Source: Oceanospirillaceae bacterium (GTDB lineage: Bacteria; Pseudomonadota; Gammaproteobacteria; Pseudomonadales; Balneatricaceae). From it: a stretch of 45,484 nt of DNA. The notes under the pieces are model-generated. The model worked only from the letters and a program-made list of their open reading frames with translations, was not told the origin of the DNA and made no database searches. Both the position numbers and the translations under genes were made by a program. Where the stretch lies: NCBI GenBank assembly GCA_013215375.1, contig JABSRB010000044.1, positions 1 to 45,484 of the forward strand, given 5' to 3'. This document shows, one piece after another, positions 2,482-42,765 of this stretch (its first letter is position 1; every line of letters begins with the position of its first letter).

Positions 2482-2916
2482 ATGCTTAAAACAGCTGTAA
2501 TACATCCTACCATTATGGAAGCGCTTGGCCGTTCTGGTCATTTTTCTCAAGTGGTCATCGCAGATGGTAATCTACCCGTAGGGGCGATTACCGGGCCGAA
2601 TTCTACCACTGTACACCTTAACTTTCGCCCAGGTTTATTGGATGCATTAACGGTGCTTGAGGGGATTCTTGAGGTTTGCCCAATTCAAGGGGCTATAGTT
2701 ATGCAAAAGCCAGCGCAAGCGAGCGCTGAGATTCATGGTGCCTACCAAAAATTATTGGGTGATGTGAGTTGGGAGGAGATGGAGCGCTGGGCCTTCTACG
2801 ATAAAATTCGGGAACCAGCTACTGTGTTGATTATCCAAACAGGGGAGCAGTGTCGTTTTGCCAACATCATACTAACTGTAGGAGTAGTGAAAATGGCTGA
2901 GGAAAGTGATTTTTAA
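2482..2916 (+). CDS. RbsD/FucU-family sugar mutarotase
   Basis: The 144-residue product starting MLKTAVIHP matches the length and layout of the RbsD (ribose pyranase) / FucU (fucose mutarotase) family. These enzymes interconvert sugar anomers so that the form released by import or hydrolysis can be used. The conserved N-terminal segment GRSGHFSQVVIADGNLP carries the catalytic-type His and the Asp of the ADxNLP motif. The open frame extends upstream to 2419, but the ATG at 2482 has a ribosome site (AAAGGTG) and begins where the family begins. It lies 90 bases after the SDR gene and is probably co-transcribed. FucU versus RbsD specificity is not resolved. No fucose or ribose kinase, isomerase or transporter is next to it. 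Confidence 0.85.
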   Translation: MLKTAVIHPTIMEALGRSGHFSQVVIADGNLPVGAITGPNSTTVHLNFRPGLLDALTVLEGILEVCPIQGAIVMQKPAQASAEIHGAYQKLLGDVSWEEMERWAFYDKIREPATVLIIQTGEQCRFANIILTVGVVKMAEESDF

Positions 2917-3416
2917 ATTTTATATTAATGGCAATTATTGAATATCTATTTCACATCGTCGAAGAGAGAATACTGTTTCTTGATGGAAAAAATATTTACC
3001 TTTCCTTCAGAAACTAGCTCGTGTTCAAGTCGCGCCGCGAGACGACCGCAGTAGACGTCTGTTTCTGGAGGGGCGTTAGCTAATTGGCCCCCCCTTATCT
3101 ATCGCGAACGAAGAAGTGAAGTCATCTAATATCTTGGGTCTGGACACTATACTGCCTATATTTTCAGAGGGTAGGGTCTTAAACAAATATGAAAAAAACA
3201 TCAAGAAAAATGGATCAGTAAATATACAGCTACGGCATGTTTCCGCAAGTTCTAATATTCAGATCCTGGCAGAGTTATTGCCGATCCATTAATATCAAGT
3301 TTATTATTAGTCATTCTAGCCGATAAATGTTGATATTGTTCATTTTGTGTTAATATTTAGTTTTATCAATATTAAGACCAGACACAGATGGCTGTTTTTT
3401 GGTTAGGAGGCTCAGG
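2917..3416. other. Gene-free region upstream of the repeat protein
   Basis: About 500 bases lack a supported gene. An imperfect GC-rich inverted repeat near 3070-3093 (GGGGC / GCCCC) is a weak terminator candidate for the FucU gene. The last 90 bases are AT-rich and contain the TTAATATT/AATATTAA inverted repeat, which probably belongs to the promoter of the repeat protein. Confidence 0.4.
3350..3375. promoter_or_regulatory. Inverted repeat in the promoter region of the repeat protein
   Basis: Arms TTAATATT (3350-3357) and AATATTAA (3368-3375) are perfect complements separated by 10 bases, ending about 40 bases before the start codon. A TTGATA at 3330 could be a -35 element. The arrangement suits an operator, but an AT-rich palindrome of this size can also arise by chance. 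Confidence 0.3.
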
Positions 3417-4130
3417 ATGAATAATCCATTTCTACGCAAAGCAGATAGTTTACAACCTTCATTTGTTTCTTCCGAGGATGGCGAGGGGAAAATATTTACC
3501 AGAGTCACTTATCACGACCTAGACATATCCTCTGGCCCAGATAATGCTCCTTCAGACTTGAAAAATTTGGCAGGGAATAACCCAGATAATAGCATTCCAG
3601 AAATATCAGTTAATCCTGCTGTGCCTACTCCTTTTACACCAGAAGCACCAGTCAATCCAGCCTGGCCGACTCCTGATCTTCCAGTGATATCTGTCAATCC
3701 AGCTTGGCCGATTCCTGATCTTCCAGTGATATCTGTCAATCCAGCTTGGCCGATTCCTGATCTTCCAGTGATATCTGTCAATCCAGCTTGGCCCACTCCT
3801 ATCAACCCAATCGATGATGCTGGGAATCCCAATGCTCAAATGGATCCTGCTGGTAATCCTAATATCCCAGAGGTGATTTCTAACCCATCTTCAGCATTTG
3901 GCCCTGATCCACTCTCTATAATTTCAGGTTCTAATTATCTGTTTATTGGTGATATTTTGGATGACGGTCAGGATATGATGACGGGGTTTTTAGCTAATCT
4001 ATCAAGTGAAGCCTATGAAATTCCTGAAATAGATGCAGTGGCTAGTGTTGATAATGAAAAGATGATTGATTTAAATTCACAGCCTAGTGTTGATCCTCTG
4101 GTTGAGGATATAGTCTATATTGACTCGTAA
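3417..4130 (+). CDS. Acidic protein with five 14-residue Pro/Trp repeats, unknown function
   Basis: The 237-residue product starts at the ATG six bases after a perfect AGGAGG; an in-frame TTG at 3399 lies upstream of that site and is unlikely to be used. There is no signal peptide, lipobox or membrane segment, so the protein is predicted cytosolic. Residues 1-64 are polar and acidic. Residues 65-134 are five tandem 14-residue units of the type VNPAWPIPDLPVIS; the first has Val in place of Trp. After the repeats come two looser NPN/GNP motifs and an acidic tail with no Cys. The family is unknown to me. It lies 67 bases before a ferritin-like diiron protein on the same strand, so the two are probably an operon. 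A multi-core modified-peptide substrate or a structural partner of the diiron protein are both possible, but this is inference. Confidence 0.75.
   Translation: MNNPFLRKADSLQPSFVSSEDGEGKIFTRVTYHDLDISSGPDNAPSDLKNLAGNNPDNSIPEISVNPAVPTPFTPEAPVNPAWPTPDLPVISVNPAWPIPDLPVISVNPAWPIPDLPVISVNPAWPTPINPIDDAGNPNAQMDPAGNPNIPEVISNPSSAFGPDPLSIISGSNYLFIGDILDDGQDMMTGFLANLSSEAYEIPEIDAVASVDNEKMIDLNSQPSVDPLVEDIVYIDS
3609..3818 (+). repeat. 42-bp in-frame tandem repeat, five units
   Basis: The unit boundary GT(C/T)AATCC occurs at 3609, 3651, 3693, 3735 and 3777, an exact 42-base period. Units 2-4 are nearly identical at DNA level (GTCAATCCAGC(T/C)TGGCC...). Units 1 and 5 are diverged, as expected when an array expands from its centre. 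Because 42 is a multiple of three, copy-number changes would keep the reading frame. Confidence 0.95.
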
Positions 4131-4197
4131 CATTGGCGGATAAAGAGTGTTGGACTATTATTATCCATGATAACTATACTTGGTTGCTGAGGTATAA

Positions 4198-4860
4198 ATG
4201 CAAAGAGTTCAACACTATTGGTACAACCAGGCGATTGCCGAATACACATCAGCGGCACGCACTGTCGAACTCAGCCACTGGATGCAACGTCTTGCATTTA
4301 GCCCTGATTTAATACGCGATGCTATTCGTATCTCAGATGATGAGATGGTGCACGCCCAAATGTGTTTTGACTTGGCAAAATTAGCGGGCAGCGAAAAAAA
4401 CTTACCTTTAAATAATATGCAATTAATACTTCCTCAAGAGTATCCATTACTGGGAAAATCGCTATTAATCGTTCTAGTACAATCCTATTGTTTTGGTGAA
4501 ACCGCGGCTGTACCACTTTTTGCCGCTATGCGAAAATCAGCCTCTAAAGATTCAGTACTCGCTGCTTACGATAGAATTCTTCAGGACGAACCTAGGCATG
4601 CAAAATTTGGTTGGGTCGCCTTAGCTTGGTGTTGTGAAAATTGGCCACAGGCAAGAGAGTGGCTAGTTGAAATAACTCCTATTGCACTGGGCAGGATGCG
4701 CAAGGCATATTGTGACCATCCGGCGTTTGATCCTCAATTAAGCCAAAACGAAATTGACTGGGGCGTTTTCCCTAGGGAACTCTATGGAGAGATTCTGGAG
4801 AGGACAATAGCGACGACTTATAGCCAGAGACTAGCGTATTACGATATACCTCTCCTTTGA
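4198..4860 (+). CDS. Ferritin-like diiron domain protein
   Basis: This 220-residue predicted cytosolic protein carries a full set of carboxylate-bridged diiron ligands: Glu15, Glu49-x-x-His52 (DDEMVHAQMC), Glu101 (CFGETAAV) and Glu131-x-x-His134 (DEPRHAKFGW). This is the pattern of a four-helix ferritin-like bundle. It resembles the uncharacterised ferritin-like proteins common in myxobacteria (EHAS, DEIRHA, GETLAA and DEARHA motifs), known to me as oxidase-like domains without assigned substrate. The ATG has a GAGG ribosome site. It follows the Pro/Trp repeat protein by 67 bases and is probably co-transcribed. It could oxidise its neighbour or a small molecule, or store or sense iron; the sequence does not decide. 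Confidence 0.8.
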   Translation: MQRVQHYWYNQAIAEYTSAARTVELSHWMQRLAFSPDLIRDAIRISDDEMVHAQMCFDLAKLAGSEKNLPLNNMQLILPQEYPLLGKSLLIVLVQSYCFGETAAVPLFAAMRKSASKDSVLAAYDRILQDEPRHAKFGWVALAWCCENWPQAREWLVEITPIALGRMRKAYCDHPAFDPQLSQNEIDWGVFPRELYGEILERTIATTYSQRLAYYDIPLL

Positions 4861-4953
4861 ACTCAAAAAATTCATTATAAGCCAAGAATGACATGGTTTA
4901 ATCACACCTATAACGATTAACCTAGTCAAATATTTTATAGAACTTCGACATAG

Positions 4954-5175
4954 ACAGTGCAGAGTTTAGGTTTTAAGGTGAAAGTTAGGGCATTGGGAGA
5001 TAACCAGGGGCTTAAATATCCTATTTTTTTAGGAAGTAACTTGGTTGAAGATGGAGCTATGTTATCGGTTTCACCAACGGGACGACAATATAGCTGCGAC
5101 TAGATTCGCTCCGGGAATTTGGCAATGACTTCGGCGGAAAAAACCAGAGGATCGACCATTGTTTGGAAACCATAA
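4954..5175 (+). pseudogene. Relic of a periplasmic binding-protein-like gene
   Basis: One reading frame gives protein-like sequence broken by an in-frame TAG at 5101. Before the stop it reads KYPIFLGSNLVEDGAMLSVS followed by PTGRQ; after it, the frame ends in STIVWKP and TAA. The sequence before the stop resembles the C-terminal part of ABC-type substrate-binding proteins (ABC_sub_bind type: a pattern of pxFxxxxxLVxxGALlsxxP followed by GRQ). There is no start codon or ribosome site, and a stop at 4951 precedes it. I read it as the 3' remnant of a lost sensor or transport gene next to the chemoreceptor gene. The family link is tentative. Confidence 0.4.
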
Positions 5176-5214
5176 TATGATGGGTCATTATCCTTAAACC
5201 CCCTCCTGATGCTT

Positions 5215-7545
5215 TTAATTAAGTTTAAAATATTCCATTAACTGAGTAAGTTGTAATGCCTTGTCGTCTAGTTGAGCACTTGAGTGCGCTGTTTCATTGA
5301 CCAATGACGCATTTTGATTACTTAATTTTTCCAGTTGCGATATGGACAGTTGAACTGAGCGGATTTTATCAAATTGCTCAGTACTAGCATCACTGATGTC
5401 AGTAACTGCATTATTGGCTTCCTTTAGCGCAGTGTAAATATTGTCTAGGGAAGTGCCGGTGTTTTTTACCAGTTGACTACTACTTAGAATTTTCAGTGAA
5501 CTGTCAGTGATAAGATGTTTGACATCTTTTGCCGCTTGAGAGGTTTTGTTCGCCAATATACCCACTTCTTTTGCCACAACAGCAAAACCTTTACCTCCAT
5601 CTTGGGCCCGTGCAGCTTCCACGGTGGCGTTTAAAGCTAAAATACTAGTTTGAAAAGAAATGTTATTAATGACATTGATGATTTCTGAAATCTTATCACT
5701 AGATTTTTTCATGATGAGCATTGAATTTATCGCAGATTCAACGATATTTAAGCCTTCAGTCGCTTGCTTCAAGGAATTAGTGACTATTTTTTTAGCGTGC
5801 TGAGCGCTCTGTACATTTTCTTCCACACGCAGCGTTAATAGTTGCATAGTATCTGCCGTGCTACTGAGGGCTGATACTTGATTGGCAATCTGTTTGTCTA
5901 AGGTTTTCCCCCTGACAGCGATATCCCTAGCGCCATTTTGTACCTTATCAGCCATGTTATGCACGTTACCTACTGTTTGTTGCAGATTATCTAATGTGGT
6001 GCTTATTGCATTGAGAATTAATGCTAATTGGCCTTCAAAGTCATTGGAAATAACTTGCTTGAGCTGACCTTGACTCATTTCAGTAGAGACTCTGACTATT
6101 TCAATAACTGCAGCTTCTATGGTTTGCATGGATAAATTAATATTAAGTTTAAGTTGATCTAAATCACCGGAAACCTCGACGCTGACCCTCTGACTAAAGT
6201 CTCCTTTGGTGGCGCTGCTCATCACTGAACTAATGTTTGTAATGGCAGCGTCTAGGAGTTTCATTGTATTGTTAGCGCTCTGTGCTGAGGTTAGGAAACT
6301 ACCTTCTAAGCCGGTTAAATCAGCACTGTTTTTGAAATCACCCTGCTGTAAGCTGTCTAATACTTGCAAGATACTATTCATGCCTTTTTCAATATTGTCA
6401 CAACTGCGATTGACTGCTTTTTTTAAGTCGGCAAAATCGCCTTGAGCCCTCGTTTCTATTCGTGCATTGAAGTTACCATCGGCGAGCGCAGTAACGACTT
6501 TGGTAACTTCCTGTAAGGTGCTTTTTTGAACGCTGAGCAGTTGATTAATTGAATCTCCCACTTGACCAATTTCGTTATTAGGCATGCCTTCTATTCGATC
6601 ACCCAGCTTTCCAGTATTGGCAATATTTAACAAGCTGCGCCGCAGTGAAATAATAGGAATGGTGATAGAGCGGGAGACGTACAACAAAAAAAACAGTATT
6701 AGCACCATAAGAACCAAACTTATAGTTGTGGTAATGAATGTGTTTCTTGCAGAGAGAGCGCTGATCGTTGCACTAATGTGCTCCTCTAAGGTGTTAATTT
6801 GAGATTCTACATCATGTACGGCATCACGCATTTGCAGCCGCAAACCTAAGTTCTCGCTTAAGCCTTTGGTTTGGTATGCCTCTACCAGCATGTGAAAGTT
6901 AGTGACGTATGTTTCCAGAACATTTAACAGTGTGTTTTTAACTTCTCTGCTAAGAGACGAGAGGTGGGTATCTGATTTAAACTGGCTAACTCTTGTATCA
7001 AATTCTTTTAAATAAGCGGCATCGCTCCTGAGCATGAAATCCTTTTCGTGGCGCCTGAGCATAAGCATATCTATGGTTAATTGTTGAGCTAGGTGATTAC
7101 TCAGTAAAGCTTCAATCTGATGCACAGAGCTTCTCAGTTTACCGTATAAGCCCTGTTTCGAACTGAGACCTATTTTTTGCTGGATAGCTAGCATAGACGA
7201 AAACCGTTGATGGTATATATCTAGCTTTTTCTTAGCCGCCATTAGCACTTTTGTATCAATCTCGTTACCGCTGATCTCTTCGGCCAAGAGATTAGTTTGG
7301 CTGACAATGTTTGAAAAAGTACTTTCAAACTTATCGATATATTTAAGATTCTTGCGCGCAAAGAAATCTTTCTCGTGGCGCCTTAAACTTAGCATGCTGT
7401 TGCTAATCTTAAACAGCAGTATCTGTTGTTGGCTATGCTGATTGATGGTCATAGTGCTGTTTTGGTTGGTTCCTAATATCAGCAACACTGCACTAATGAC
7501 TAGTGCTATAAGGATATAAAATTGTTTTTTTATCGACATGGTCAA
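5215..7545 (-). CDS. Methyl-accepting chemotaxis protein with HBM-type sensor domain
   Basis: This 776-residue transmembrane chemoreceptor has a first membrane helix at about 9-25, then a long helical periplasmic sensor with two LRRHEKDF motifs, the hallmark of helical bimodular (HBM) ligand-binding domains. A second membrane helix follows at about 270-292, then a HAMP domain and further HAMP-like helical segments. The C-terminal cytoplasmic signalling domain includes the hairpin tip [13 protein letters not shown] and GFAVVAKEV, the site that contacts CheA/CheW. No C-terminal NWETF-like CheR-docking pentapeptide is present. HBM receptors elsewhere sense organic acids such as TCA intermediates; the ligand here is unknown. 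The gene is monocistronic, between two decayed genes. Confidence 0.93.
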
Positions 7546-38551: not shown

Positions 38552-38574
38552 AGCCGCTGTTTAAGCGGCTTTTG
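38552..38574. terminator. Bidirectional terminator between convergent genes
   Basis: AGCCGCT and AGCGGCT pair around GTTTA and are followed by TTTT on the plus strand. The stem overlaps the last codons of the minus-strand ATPase gene, which ends at 38561. It serves at least the outer-membrane gene. Confidence 0.75.
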
Positions 38575-39376
38575 AACGTTTGTTAATACGAGTCCTAGCA
38601 ATGCTCATTGGAGTGTTGGCCTCTGGGTCTTTAATAACAATGGCATCAAAGTTAAACACCTCTGATAACATCGTCTCTGTAAACACAGTTTGCGGTGTGC
38701 CGATATCGATAATTTTCCCCTCTCGCATAATGACTAACTCATCTGCATACCGGCAAGCTTGATTTAAATCATGCATGACTAAAACGATGGTTTTCCCCGA
38801 GTCATTGAGCTGCTGCAATAACTCAAGCAGTTCAAATTGGTGGCAAATATCTAAATAGGTAGTGGGTTCGTCTAGCAGTAAAATATCGGTATCTTGGGCG
38901 AGTACTAAGGCAATCCACACTCGCTGTAATTGCCCGCCAGAGAGCTGATCTATATAACTATCTGCTAAATCACTGACCCCCGCTTGTTGCATTGCGAGTG
39001 CAATTTGACGATGATCGGCCGCTTTGAGCATGCCAAACTGGTTTAAATAAGGTGCGCGGCCAAAGGCCACTAAAGTGCTAACGGTAATCCCCTCTGGCGA
39101 TTGAGTGACTTGCGGTAATAACGCGAGTTGTTTGGCAATTTCTTTACTAGGGCATTTTAGGATATCCAGATCAGCGCCTAAAAATATACTGCCGGCACTA
39201 GGTTTTATTAATCGGCTAATGCTCTTTAATAAGGTCGATTTACCACAGCCGTTGGGACCTATTAACGCAGTGATCTTGCCCTTTTTGATGGCTAGATCAA
39301 GCTTGCCAATGATCTGTTTGTTGCCGTATTTAACATCTAATTGTTTGATGTTAATTGCCGGGGATGTTGTGCTCAT
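38561..39376 (-). CDS. Siderophore/heme ABC transporter ATP-binding protein
   Basis: The 271-residue ATPase of the FecE/FepC type has Walker A GPNGCGKST (40-48), the signature LSGGQLQRV (145-153), Walker B ILLLDEP (165-171) and the switch His in VMHDLNQA. It powers import of a ferric siderophore or heme through the two permeases. Its ATG overlaps the stop of a 60-codon chimeric ORF by four bases, ATGA. It is the last gene of the operon. Confidence 0.94.
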   Translation of the reverse strand: MSTTSPAINIKQLDVKYGNKQIIGKLDLAIKKGKITALIGPNGCGKSTLLKSISRLIKPSAGSIFLGADLDILKCPSKEIAKQLALLPQVTQSPEGITVSTLVAFGRAPYLNQFGMLKAADHRQIALAMQQAGVSDLADSYIDQLSGGQLQRVWIALVLAQDTDILLLDEPTTYLDICHQFELLELLQQLNDSGKTIVLVMHDLNQACRYADELVIMREGKIIDIGTPQTVFTETMLSEVFNFDAIVIKDPEANTPMSIARTRINKRSKAA

Positions 39377-39630
39377 GGGTTCACCAGTTTTTGTAGCGAC
39401 AAAGTAATAAAATAAGAGATAGAGAGGAGGGCGCCAATTAAGGCATCAATATTGCCATCTACTTCCGATAGGATTTGCTTGGCGTTAATAACTAGCGACC
39501 AATAATTAATATCTGATTGATTAATTGATGTTAAGGCCTTGGGTATTGTGCTCATTTTGTCACCAGTTTTTGTAACGACAAAGTAAGAAGATAAAGTAGG
39601 GGGCGCCGATAAACGCGGTTAAAATTCCCG
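39323..39630. repeat. Diverged tandem duplication of the permease/ATPase gene junction
   Basis: The junction sequence is present twice, about 179 bases apart. TTGTGCTCAT occurs at 39367-39376 and 39546-39555. TCACCAGTTTTTGTA(G/A)CGACAAAGTAA occurs at 39381 and 39560. Similarity then fades in both directions. The copies have diverged well beyond those at the other junction. The duplication spans the 3' end of the second permease and the 5' end of the ATPase. Confidence 0.75.
39373..39555 (-). CDS. 60-residue chimeric ORF: ATPase start fused to permease end
   Basis: The frame begins MSTIPKALTSINQ like the ATPase (MSTTSPAINIKQ) and ends ALIGALLSISYFITL like the second permease (TAFIGAPYFIFLL). 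It arises from a tandem duplication of the gene junction and contains one potential membrane helix. Stop and start codons interlock: its TGA overlaps the ATPase ATG, and its own start lies four bases after the permease stop. It may be a harmless scar. The sequence has drifted far from both parents, but the frame is still open. Confidence 0.45.
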   Translation of the reverse strand: MSTIPKALTSINQSDINYWSLVINAKQILSEVDGNIDALIGALLSISYFITLSLQKLVNP

Positions 39631-40540
39631 CTGGTAGTTCAATCGGCGGCATCAAAATACGCGCAAACAAGTCGGCACTGATCACTAAAATGGCACCGGT
39701 GATTGCCGTTGCTGGTATCAACAATAAATGCCGTTGGCCCAGTAATGAGCGCACTAAATGCGGTGATATTAAACCGACAAAACCGATACTGCCGCACACT
39801 GAGACCGCTGCACTGGCCAAGCTAATGGCTACTAAAATGCTCAATAGCCGCAATTTTTTAACATTGGTGCCTAAGCTGCTGGCAGTGTCATCACCTAAGG
39901 CTAATAAATCGAGACGATAGGCTAGCAACATTGCTATCGGCAATAACACCGCTAGCCAAGGAGCGATCAGAGGCAAGTGCTGCCAGTTACGCCCCCACAC
40001 AGAGCCGGTTAACCAGAGCATGGCGGTATTTATTTCCAGTGGATTAACCACTAGCAGATAGTCGATAGCGGCGCCAAAGGTGGCTGCTAGTGCAATGCCG
40101 ACTAAGGCAAAAGCGGCGGGGCGCTGCAATAGATGGCGGGCTAAAAATAGTAGTAGCGCAGTCGCACTAAAACCACCGATTAGAGCGGCAGCTGGTATAT
40201 AGCTAATGGGTGCATGTGGCCAGAATACCGCCAGTATTATCACCGCTAAACTGGCACCGCTAGTAACGCCTAATACATCGGGAGAGGCGAGCGGATTGCG
40301 AATCACTCCCTGAATCAATAACCCAGAGATAGCCAGTGCGGCACCAACTAACCCCGAGATCAATAATCGGGGTAAACGAAAATTATTGATAATAAAATGG
40401 TGTTCGCTATTCACAGATTGCAGTGCGCTAATAATCTCTGCGGGCGCTATATAGACCGCACCTGCGCCTATGTGCCAAACGCTGAAAGACAGCAGCAGAA
40501 AAATCAAGCAGGCAAAGACAGTAATAGGTTGAGCTTTCAT
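39560..40540 (-). CDS. FecCD-family iron-complex permease (second)
   Basis: The 326-residue protein has about ten hydrophobic helices of the FecCD/BtuC permease family. Signatures are RLPRLLISGLVGAALAISG, GVIRNPLASPDVLGVTSGA, the coupling-helix region and the C-terminal IGFVGLISPHLVR. With the other permease it forms the channel that imports ferric-siderophore or heme across the inner membrane. Its ATG overlaps the stop of the 77-codon chimeric ORF by four bases. Confidence 0.94.
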   Translation of the reverse strand: MKAQPITVFACLIFLLLSFSVWHIGAGAVYIAPAEIISALQSVNSEHHFIINNFRLPRLLISGLVGAALAISGLLIQGVIRNPLASPDVLGVTSGASLAVIILAVFWPHAPISYIPAAALIGGFSATALLLFLARHLLQRPAAFALVGIALAATFGAAIDYLLVVNPLEINTAMLWLTGSVWGRNWQHLPLIAPWLAVLLPIAMLLAYRLDLLALGDDTASSLGTNVKKLRLLSILVAISLASAAVSVCGSIGFVGLISPHLVRSLLGQRHLLLIPATAITGAILVISADLFARILMPPIELPAGILTAFIGAPYFIFLLCRYKNW

Positions 40541-40905
40541 GACTGACGCCTCACTTGTCTCAGCGCTAAGGCGAGGAAAAATAATGCGCCGATTACGCTA
40601 GTGATGATGCCTATAGGGCTGTCATCGGGAAAGCGAATTACCTGCGAAGAAACATTGTCGGTTAACGTAAAGGTCGCTATATAAGCCGCGCCTGTGTTTA
40701 GGTGCCAAATGCTGAAAGACAGCAGCAGAAAAATCAAGCAGGTAAAGATAGTTATTGGTTGAGCTTTCATGACTGGCGCCTCACTTGTCTCAGCGCTAGA
40801 GCGAGGAAAAATAATGCACCGATCACACTAGTAATGATGCCTATAGGGCTGTCATCGGGAAAGCGAATCACCCGTGAGAAAATATCAGCGGTTAACATCA
40901 AAGTC
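40446..40905. repeat. 230-bp tandem duplication of the permease/permease gene junction
   Basis: Two copies, 40446-40675 and 40676-40905, align without any insertion or deletion. My hand count is 31 differences in 230 bases (about 87% identity). The right end of each copy is GTTAAC followed by AAGGTC or AAAGTC then GC, suggesting a short homology at the breakpoint. The duplication spans the 3' end of the first permease gene and the 5' end of the second. Confidence 0.93.
40537..40770 (-). CDS. 77-residue chimeric ORF: second-permease start fused to first-permease end
   Basis: The frame starts MKAQPITIFTCLIFLLLSFS, like the second permease, and ends in 34 residues (VIRFPDDSPIGIITSV ... RQVRRQS) identical to the first permease's C-terminus. 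Two membrane helices are predicted. Over those 34 codons the copies differ at 8 nucleotides, all synonymous. Over the N-terminal half, 7 mostly conservative residue changes are seen. The ORF overlaps both neighbours by ATGA, so it can be translated by coupling. Intact frame, no indels and silent changes suggest selection or gene conversion. It might be a small accessory subunit of the importer; this is inference. Confidence 0.6.
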   Translation of the reverse strand: MKAQPITIFTCLIFLLLSFSIWHLNTGAAYIATFTLTDNVSSQVIRFPDDSPIGIITSVIGALFFLALALRQVRRQS

Positions 40906-41813
40906 GCACCCAATAAAGCGCACAACGGTACTAACCAACGGTAGTCTTGACCTATCATCGCCCTGGCGATGTGTGGGATCATCAGCCCGATAAAACCTAC
41001 CGGCCCTGCAACACTCACCGCACTGGCAATGAGTAATATCACCGCAATACTGGCGAGGATTCTGATCTTTTTGGCGTTACCGCCCAAGCTATTCATCATC
41101 TCCTCGCCAATGTGCATTAAATTTAATTGGTGGGCTAATAGCACTGCCAAAACTAGGCCAATACTGGTGCCCGGTAAGATAGTGTAAACATCTGCCATAC
41201 TGGTGTTGGATACACTGCCAATCAACCAATGTAGTACTCCATAGGCGTTTTCATCGGCAAAAATAACCGCTGCACGAGTCATTGAAATACATAAGTAATT
41301 TAAAGCAACTCCCGCCAGCACTACCCGAATGGGATTGACTTGAGCAAGGTGTAGGCCTCCTAGAAAAAATACCAGTACTCCGCAAATTAATGCGCCCGCC
41401 ATGGTGATAAATAACACGGGAATGTGTGTCAGCCAGGGGATTAATCCGGTAGAGGCGAAAGCAAAGGCAAAAGCGGCTCCTGCGCTAACGCCAAAAACTG
41501 AGGGGGAGGCGAGCGGATTACGCGTGATACCCTGCATTAACAACCCGGCGATAGCCATCGCTATACCCACTAAAATAGCTACCAAGGTACGAGGAAGACG
41601 TAATCCCATAATAATTTGTTGATTAATATCACTGGCGTTGAAATTGAATATAACATTGAGCAGGTCACTAGCTTGTAGCGAGAATTGCGAGAAGGCAGTG
41701 AGCGAAAAAAATAAACTGATGAAAAAGGCGATGCCCAGAACAGTAAAAATTAGCGTGCGTTGAACTTGTTGATTTAGCGTGGCGGTGGCTGGCAGAACAA
41801 AAGTGTTGGACAT
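40767..41813 (-). CDS. FecCD-family iron-complex permease (first)
   Basis: The 348-residue protein starts MSNTFVLPATA; the open frame extends to a GTG at 41840 but the ATG at 41813 is preferred, although no ribosome site is strong. Family signatures are GLRLPRTLVAILVGIAMAIA, GITRNPLASPSVFGVSAGA and GFIGLMIPHIARA. It has about ten helices and pairs with the second permease in the FecCD/BtuC-type channel. It lies 73 bases after the binding-protein gene. Confidence 0.93.
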   Translation of the reverse strand: MSNTFVLPATATLNQQVQRTLIFTVLGIAFFISLFFSLTAFSQFSLQASDLLNVIFNFNASDINQQIIMGLRLPRTLVAILVGIAMAIAGLLMQGITRNPLASPSVFGVSAGAAFAFAFASTGLIPWLTHIPVLFITMAGALICGVLVFFLGGLHLAQVNPIRVVLAGVALNYLCISMTRAAVIFADENAYGVLHWLIGSVSNTSMADVYTILPGTSIGLVLAVLLAHQLNLMHIGEEMMNSLGGNAKKIRILASIAVILLIASAVSVAGPVGFIGLMIPHIARAMIGQDYRWLVPLCALLGATLMLTADIFSRVIRFPDDSPIGIITSVIGALFFLALALRQVRRQS

Positions 41814-41886
41814 GTTTACGTTATCAAATAATAGCCACACTATTGATTAGCGTGGCTTTGAGGGTTGTGCGAATTGAAGCTAGGCT

Positions 41887-42765
41887 CTATTTCACAATAG
41901 ATTGTAGCTCTTTTGCCATTATCTCAGCGGCGATCATGCCGCGATTTAAAGACCAAAGCTTAGGATTAGTTTCAACGTAGGTGTTGTTTTTAACCGAGCT
42001 GATCAAGTTCCACAACGGATTTTTCTTGAAGTCATCTACGACGGTTTCATCGCCGTACTCACCGACTAATAAATAATCAGGGTTAGCTTTTACTAGACGC
42101 TCCAAGGTGCTGCTGATATAAGCCTTTTCTGTTTCTTCTGCAATAGCACTGCTCAGGCCGAGACGTTCCATTACCCCACCGGCATAGGCTTTTGGTGAGT
42201 GCATATATAAACCGCGGGTGCTGGATACAGCAAATAGGAACGTTTTATCACTATTGATCCTTTTGGCAAAAGCATCCATACGCTCGTTGTGGCCTGCAAT
42301 CAACTGCTGCATTTTCTCTTCTTGATCAAGCACAGTGCCAATTTTTGCCACGGCACTTAGGTTATCTTTATAAGATTCACCACGACTCTTGAGAATAAGC
42401 GTTGGTGCTATTTTTTTAAGGTCTTCGTAGATAGTCGCATGACGTTCCATATCAGCGATGATCATGTCTGGTTTTAGCGAGGCGATAATCTCTAGATTAG
42501 GTGTTGACCTGCTACCGACTGAAGTCCATGCCTCAATTTTGTCACTAATCGCCGGAATAACACGAGTGGCATCACCATCATCGGCTACGCCAACAGGAGA
42601 CACGCCTAAGCTTGCCAGTGCATCGACAAACGAAAACTCTAACACTATGATACGTTTAGGTGTTTGATCAATAGAAAACTCGCCCATTTCATCATGGACA
42701 TGGGTGGCTGCAATCAAGTTAAAACTCAGCAGGGCGAAGGCGCAAGCAATAAGACGTTTGAACAT
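41887..42765 (-). CDS. Iron-complex ABC transporter substrate-binding protein
   Basis: The 292-residue periplasmic protein has a signal peptide (MFKRLIACAFALLSFNLIA) and a FecB/FhuD/BtuF-type fold. The sequence TPKRIIVLEFSFVDALASLG, then GSRSTPNLEIIASLKPDMII, is typical of class III binding proteins for ferric siderophores. It delivers the ligand to the two permeases. The AGGAG ribosome site and the Fur-like box 27 bases upstream support it as the first gene of an iron-repressed operon. No TonB-dependent receptor is present in the window. Confidence 0.93.
   Translation of the reverse strand: MFKRLIACAFALLSFNLIAATHVHDEMGEFSIDQTPKRIIVLEFSFVDALASLGVSPVGVADDGDATRVIPAISDKIEAWTSVGSRSTPNLEIIASLKPDMIIADMERHATIYEDLKKIAPTLILKSRGESYKDNLSAVAKIGTVLDQEEKMQQLIAGHNERMDAFAKRINSDKTFLFAVSSTRGLYMHSPKAYAGGVMERLGLSSAIAEETEKAYISSTLERLVKANPDYLLVGEYGDETVVDDFKKNPLWNLISSVKNNTYVETNPKLWSLNRGMIAAEIMAKELQSIVK

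Follow-up and report, generated by a model that had tools for sequence, protein, structure and literature searches.

Among the described systems that lie closest to the gene pair reported here are the bufferins and other RiPPs of the MNIO (DUF692) type. According to the available text of PMC12452194, Sec signal peptides are common among bufferin-type MNIO precursors and rare among other RiPPs, and preliminary results make the bufferin-type Sec signal peptide part of the recognition sequence. In the microviridin system AMdnA/AMdnC, one enzyme handles several core peptides in one precursor, as described in the accessible part of PMC5934393. The available portion of a review (PMC13108848) describes roles in ribosomal peptide modification for the scaffold of the heme oxygenase-like diiron oxidases (HDOs) and sets these enzymes structurally apart from the ferritin-like diiron oxygenases; the diiron sites of the two types are compared in the accessible text of PMC13185094. 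Searches of open-access literature by title and abstract opening, with most subscription papers outside their scope, turned up no case in which a ferritin-like diiron enzyme acts on a precursor of ribosomal origin. Where ferritin-like diiron and ribosomal wording coincide, in the accessible part of PMC9867215, the subject is encapsulin cargo.

The pair considered here lies on the + strand of a 45,484-nucleotide stretch of Oceanospirillaceae DNA (the window), with a repeat-protein gene at 3417–4130 followed after 67 bases by a diiron-protein gene at 4198–4860. An AGGAGG ribosome-binding site (3405–3410) is located six bases 5' of the first ATG, and GAGG (4189–4192), a probable ribosome-binding site, five bases 5' of the second. 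The arrangement described in the sequence-only reading, two same-strand genes with a 67-base gap and good ribosome sites, was thus recovered. About 500 bases upstream of the repeat-protein gene are an SDR gene and an RbsD/FucU gene (by Pfam), and downstream of the pair is a convergent gene that on reading is chemotaxis-receptor-like; the pair stands alone among its neighbours. In the roughly 500 bases that separate the repeat-protein gene from FucU (2917–3416) there is no clear gene and no Rfam match, and no Rfam match at gathering score was obtained over 2900–5300. Fur-box-like matches in the window were at chance level (5 against 4.56 expected) and none was near the pair, so that Fur control of the pair was rejected for the window locus. 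Neither the number of predicted promoter sites (11, with a shuffle mean of 5.8, sd 2.8) nor that of terminator-like sites (2 against 1.8) was informative. Elsewhere in the window, a 230-base tandem duplication (40445–40872; 1.9 copies, 89% matches) sits where two FecCD-like permease genes meet, within a minus-strand cluster (38561–42765) that was named by reading as a ferric-siderophore-type ABC importer.

The first gene encodes a 237-residue VNPxxP-repeat protein, here called the partner and proposed to be either a substrate or a docking partner of the diiron protein, a related partner being found directly upstream of all five diiron genes. It is acidic (34 D/E against 6 K/R), contains no Cys and lacks a hydrophobic stretch near its N-terminus (over the first 39 residues the highest 15-residue Kyte-Doolittle mean is −0.07), in agreement with its earlier description as lacking Cys and a signal peptide, with an acidic leader-like segment and an acidic tail. 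Its conserved N-terminus, MNNPFLRKADSLQPSFV (3417–3467, + strand), is a proposed leader or recognition segment, based on N-terminal identity among the five partners. Five 42-base units follow at 3609–3818, defined by TRF and unit comparison and translating as VNPAVPTPFTPEAP, VNPAWPTPDLPVIS, VNPAWPIPDLPVIS twice and VNPAWPTPINPIDD. TRF itself reports a tandem array at 3651–3800 with a period of 42 and 96% matches, and the VNP of the five units starts at residues 65, 79, 93, 107 and 121, a constant interval of 14. At the DNA level, units 3 and 4 match fully (42/42) and differ from unit 2 by two of 42 bases, while unit 1 has 25/42 and unit 5 27/42 bases in common with units 2–4. The five units with a spacing of 14 reported before are therefore a real array, but the description of them as exact holds for units 3 and 4 only. 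Trp is present in four of the five units, its place in the first being taken by Val. The rest of the protein (3819–4127, + strand) is a linker and an acidic C-terminal tail, with little conservation among partners.

The second gene encodes a ferritin-like diiron protein of 220 residues, a proposed oxygenase. Its candidate iron ligands are Glu15 (codon at 4240–4242), Glu49 and His52 in an E-x-x-H at codons 49–52 (4342–4353), Glu101 (4498–4500), and Glu131 and His134 in a second E-x-x-H at codons 131–134 (4588–4599), all on the + strand. This is the ligand set that had been picked out from the window sequence, and all six residues are identical in the five homologs, giving the pattern E..ExxH..E..ExxH with four Glu and two His; the nearby Glu24 is not invariant, being His in two of the five. 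The spacings E15–E49 (34) and E101–E131 (30) are ones that we take to resemble those of known diiron carboxylate enzymes. Against Pfam and other curated family models, the window protein stays below every cut-off: DUF455 scores 15.6 of the 34.3 bits needed (at best 16.2 among the homologs), and Rubrerythrin at best 18 of 22.8 bits among the homologs. When a profile of the five homologs was aligned by hhalign with a Paraburkholderia protein (L032, 2629–3603), a single pairwise comparison rather than a database search, the match had a probability of 96.4 and an E-value of 1.1e-9, with both ExxH motifs in register. The Paraburkholderia protein in turn scores 23.8 bits against the Pfam Rubrerythrin cut-off of 22.8, and matches AurF at 2.6e-6, below the cut-off. 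Two AlphaFold models, built from a two-sequence alignment, were all-helical and poor (pLDDT 45 and 46), and Foldseek with the first of these pLDDT-poor models gave no match at E ≤ 0.001; the best match in a profile search of the PDB was a de novo designed diiron protein (E 0.037). Judged from the profile matches, the window protein is a remote ferritin-like protein. Comparison with the paralog in the same genome gives pN 0.22 and pS 0.81, with synonymous sites saturated, by which measure the enzyme is under purifying selection.

Five copies of the diiron gene, the only ones known, were found in four genomes: two in the source genome (that of the window and a paralog), one in G001 (CAKZOD010000051.1, an uncultured Oceanospirillaceae of the same genus), and one each in G1112 and G1177, both from another order of the class. 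Three of the five thus come from one genus. Pairwise identity among the enzymes is 39.5% or higher. The sequence-only reading had proposed a search for conserved adjacency in genomes, and in all five copies a partner gene lies directly upstream on the same strand, separated by 67 (window), 102–123 (paralog), 60 (G001), 33–54 (G1112) and 9 bases (G1177), the ranges reflecting the choice of start codon. The next gene upstream is different each time: FucU (by Pfam) and, named by reading, an EamA-like transporter, a hydantoinase-like gene, UreF and MoaC. Because the neighbouring upstream genes differ at every locus, the pair itself is the conserved unit. Reading of the ORF lists revealed no protease, exporter or additional tailoring enzyme common to the loci, the flanks in G001 and G1177 being short or cut by contig ends.

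The paralog enzyme (65% identity to that of the window) lies at a contig end. The open frame directly upstream of it continues past the contig edge and contains the NPAPP unit twice, once as part of PEISVNPAPP. What appears to be the first half of this partner begins MSNPYTREA and was located at the terminus of a different contig (95% match over 57 bases); we infer that the two contig-end halves belong to one gene. A PepSY_TM membrane protein gene (L020, 12455–13837) is convergent to the paralog; PepSY_TM proteins are often linked to iron uptake. In G001, the enzyme is 70% identical and the partner has 425 residues, starts with MDNPYIREA and carries seven VNPMPP and two further VNP motifs. The G1112 enzyme is 41% identical, and its small partner starts with MNNPYKAKV (the second or third possible start) and has the motifs IAVNPAGP and ISVNPAPP. 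The G1177 enzyme is 54% identical, and its 96-residue partner starts with MSNPYKRKA and has just two sites, CNPAPI and VNPAPV, neither of which is a full VNPxxP.

The partners are otherwise diverged, but all five keep M, N3, P4, an aromatic residue at position 5 and F16 (M-x-N-P-[FY] ... F16), and every one contains V-N-P, mostly as V-N-P-x-x-P, with two to nine motifs per partner. The string ISVNPAPP is exact in the paralog's partner and in that of G1112, that is, across orders. Trp had been named as one target of oxidation in the sequence-only reading; the Trp of VNPAWP is found in the units of this window only, other partners having Pro or Gly there, while V-N-P recurs. Trp is consequently a disfavoured target, and its oxidation as the conserved reaction was rejected. 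Over residues 2–17, the five partners have 73 pair identities, compared to a shuffle mean of 11.7, and 42/96 identities between the two taxonomic groups, compared to a mean of 7.0; neither value was reached in 20,000 shuffles.

Because the patterns were chosen after the partners had been viewed, the counts of shuffles, those for the N-terminus included, and of ORFs with a pattern are descriptive and inflated. The five motifs of the window partner compare with a mean of 0.144 in composition shuffles; the motif count was reached in 0/5000 shuffles for the window, for G001 and for both halves of the paralog's partner, in 4/5000 for G1112 and in 7/5000 for G1177; NPAP, VNPxxP or NPxPP occurs in seven of the 242 ORFs of at least 80 residues at 14 loci, six of which belong to the five partners (one partner being split in two); and M.NP[FY] occurs in five of the same 242, all of them partners. 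The sole non-partner ORF with an NP pattern is in L032 (start 442), a single match lying over 1 kb away from the ferritin-like gene there. A degenerate pattern for the N-terminus, run against seven genomes, had one match in G000 and one in G001, the remaining five giving none.

The partner N-termini fall at different levels of hydrophobicity. As judged from Kyte-Doolittle means rather than a dedicated predictor, those of G1112 and G1177 have hydrophobic segments (best 15-residue means 1.89 and 1.83) and look like Sec signal peptides, while the best means in the genus of the window are −0.07, 0.02 and 0.92. The earlier description of the repeat protein as cytosolic suits the window partner, but the two out-group partners have these signal-like N-termini. 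Since the N-terminus is conserved even in partners that lack the hydrophobic segment, it is best read as a probable recognition site, and the diiron enzyme is proposed as the reader because it is the only candidate that always adjoins the partner N-terminus. Two partners (L005, 4663–4974, and L022, 17549–17863) have a Lys/Trp-containing region of the K-AW-KWKKLI type between the N-terminus and the motifs. About 80 residues following the N-terminus are common to two partners, with 39% identity over 105 columns including the N-terminus. The sequence shared in this part of the proteins, the Lys/Trp-containing region included, has no Pfam match and is absent from the window partner.

The enzyme was found in two of 144 genomes, both among the seven listed genomes of the window's genus. 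Of the larger sets, which overlap one another, that of the order had 2/390 genomes with a match (the source genome and one chance-like match), that of the phylum 2/398 (the source genome and one remote match) and that of the class 6/369 (the source genome, G1112 and four weak matches). Among relatives of G1112 there were 2/280, and within its family 2/63, the same 63 genomes representing its order. The contig scan, built on short patterns from a single protein, is sensitive to close relatives only. Occurrence in two of seven listed genomes of the window's genus and two of 63 in the second family points to a patchily held, accessory trait. With tblastn, the window enzyme had no match in plasmids or phages, nor had the G001 partner in plasmids or the G1112 partner in phages, and two viral-contig scans gave no relative. 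The G1112 and G1177 enzymes shared one weak plasmid match, from Paraburkholderia (E 9e-3 and 9e-2), and on these searches a phage or plasmid origin was rejected. This Paraburkholderia plasmid record (L032, 1.09 Mb) has two adjacent ferritin-like genes at 2629–4566, one of them with Rubrerythrin/AurF similarity, although the record carries no gene annotation for that interval. The weak matches L009 and L027 were put down to chance on reading; L028 was left out of the inspection of weak matches, and L025 was included in the ORF-pattern scan alone.

Diiron homologs occurring widely without a repeat neighbour had been named beforehand as one observation that would speak against a link between the two proteins. 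Within the family proper none was found (5/5 paired), and a functional pairing is supported for this reason, but four remote ferritin-like proteins (L011 and L032, so called from sub-threshold or marginal Pfam scores, and L024 and L026, by reading) have no adjacent ORF of at least 80 residues with the partner pattern. The pairing, the N-terminus, the motif and the ligands are conserved, which suggests an undescribed system of enzyme and substrate or of enzyme and docking partner.

We put the probability at about one half that the two genes form a rare cassette, the ferritin-like diiron oxygenase or oxidase being guided by the N-terminus of a dedicated multi-site protein substrate, whose motifs it oxidises. 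The enzyme would load two irons through E15, E49/H52, E101 and E131/H134, and would recognise the partner by M-x-N-P-[FY] ... F16. It would then activate O2 and oxidise the exposed VNPxxP-type motifs one after another, most likely by C–H hydroxylation (or desaturation) at Asn or Pro. In the out-group, the N-terminus could double as a Sec signal peptide, leading to export of the modified protein, while in the window's genus the modified partner would stay cytosolic or leave by another route. The variation in motif number, from two to nine, and the DNA identity of two of the window's units resemble what is seen in multi-core precursors and fit a multi-core-like mode of working.

Several observations count against the partner being a substrate: no family cut-off is reached and the AlphaFold models are poor, the loci have no protease, exporter or tailoring enzyme in common, the two sites of the G1177 partner are incomplete, the region of about 80 residues is missing from the window partner, and only five copies are known. 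Moreover, conserved docking motifs would yield the same pattern without any chemistry. The VNPxxP motifs might be repeated short binding sites by which an unmodified partner gathers several diiron proteins, the latter acting on a small molecule, or storing or detoxifying iron or peroxide. Free variation in motif number and spacing, together with the Pro-rich composition of the partners, is typical of multivalent linear motifs, and the pairing in all five copies fits as well. A permanent scaffold is disfavoured, however, because the putative export of the G1112 and G1177 partners would take them out of the compartment of an enzyme whose own N-terminus, by reading, lacks a signal-like segment. 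We regard docking as the main rival, though distinctly less likely than the substrate reading.

The signal-like N-termini of two of the five partners, together with the PepSY_TM gene beside the paralog, would also suit a periplasmic or secreted carrier of metal or peptide, the diiron protein being an independent, co-regulated stress protein. Plain secretion would have no need for N-terminal residues that are conserved even where there is no hydrophobic segment, and the chance-level Fur-box count, from the window locus, speaks against this reading as well; we regard it as improbable. Pro-rich repeats arise easily, and with five known copies, three from a single genus, a low-complexity Pro-rich protein might have come to lie beside a ferritin-like one by accident. 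This is already contradicted by the copies in G1112 and G1177, and pairing without exception across two orders, the common ISVNPAPP string and N-terminal identity beyond all 20,000 shuffles make coincidence very improbable.

The reading of the pair as enzyme and multi-site substrate can be set against the known systems. Of the marks of a RiPP, a conserved leader and a core region are seen at the sequence level as N-terminal identity and a recurring motif. The 5/5 adjacency places a putative precursor gene next to that of an enzyme which may modify its product. A RiPP-associated protease or exporter, common but not required, is not shared by the loci in their ORF lists. By analogy, the bufferin-type MNIO system is the nearest: in bufferins and other MNIO RiPPs, too, the gene of an iron-dependent oxidative enzyme lies behind that of the precursor. 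The enzymes belong to another protein family, however, no MNIO/DUF692 domain being among the Pfam families listed at E 0.1 for the five enzymes here, and most MNIO precursors have Cys motifs, while among the motifs here CNPAPI in G1177 alone contains a Cys. The ferritin-like diiron oxygenases of the AurF, rubrerythrin-like and DUF455 families have the E, ExxH, E, ExxH ligands and a weak profile similarity in common with the diiron protein, which nevertheless falls below every curated cut-off. HDOs likewise have a diiron scaffold, but the weak profile matches point to the ferritin-like side. The enzyme of the microviridin system is an ATP-grasp ligase that makes macrolactones, unlike the diiron enzyme, Pro-rich motifs and mostly longer proteins found here.

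An enzyme with a dedicated precursor is a known arrangement, and there is a real chance, if somewhat short of even, that the pair represents a new class of ribosomal protein modification. A ferritin-like diiron oxygenase would oxidise repeated V-N-P-x-x-P motifs under the direction of the N-terminus, which in some lineages would be a Sec signal peptide, and the product might be, for example, a hydroxylated Asn or Pro or an Asn-derived metal-binding group. If so, the ferritin-like diiron fold would be added to those known to modify peptides or proteins of ribosomal origin, acting on a mostly Cys-free motif in a compact two-gene form, and another case would stand beside the bufferins in which a signal peptide serves as the recognition sequence of the enzyme.
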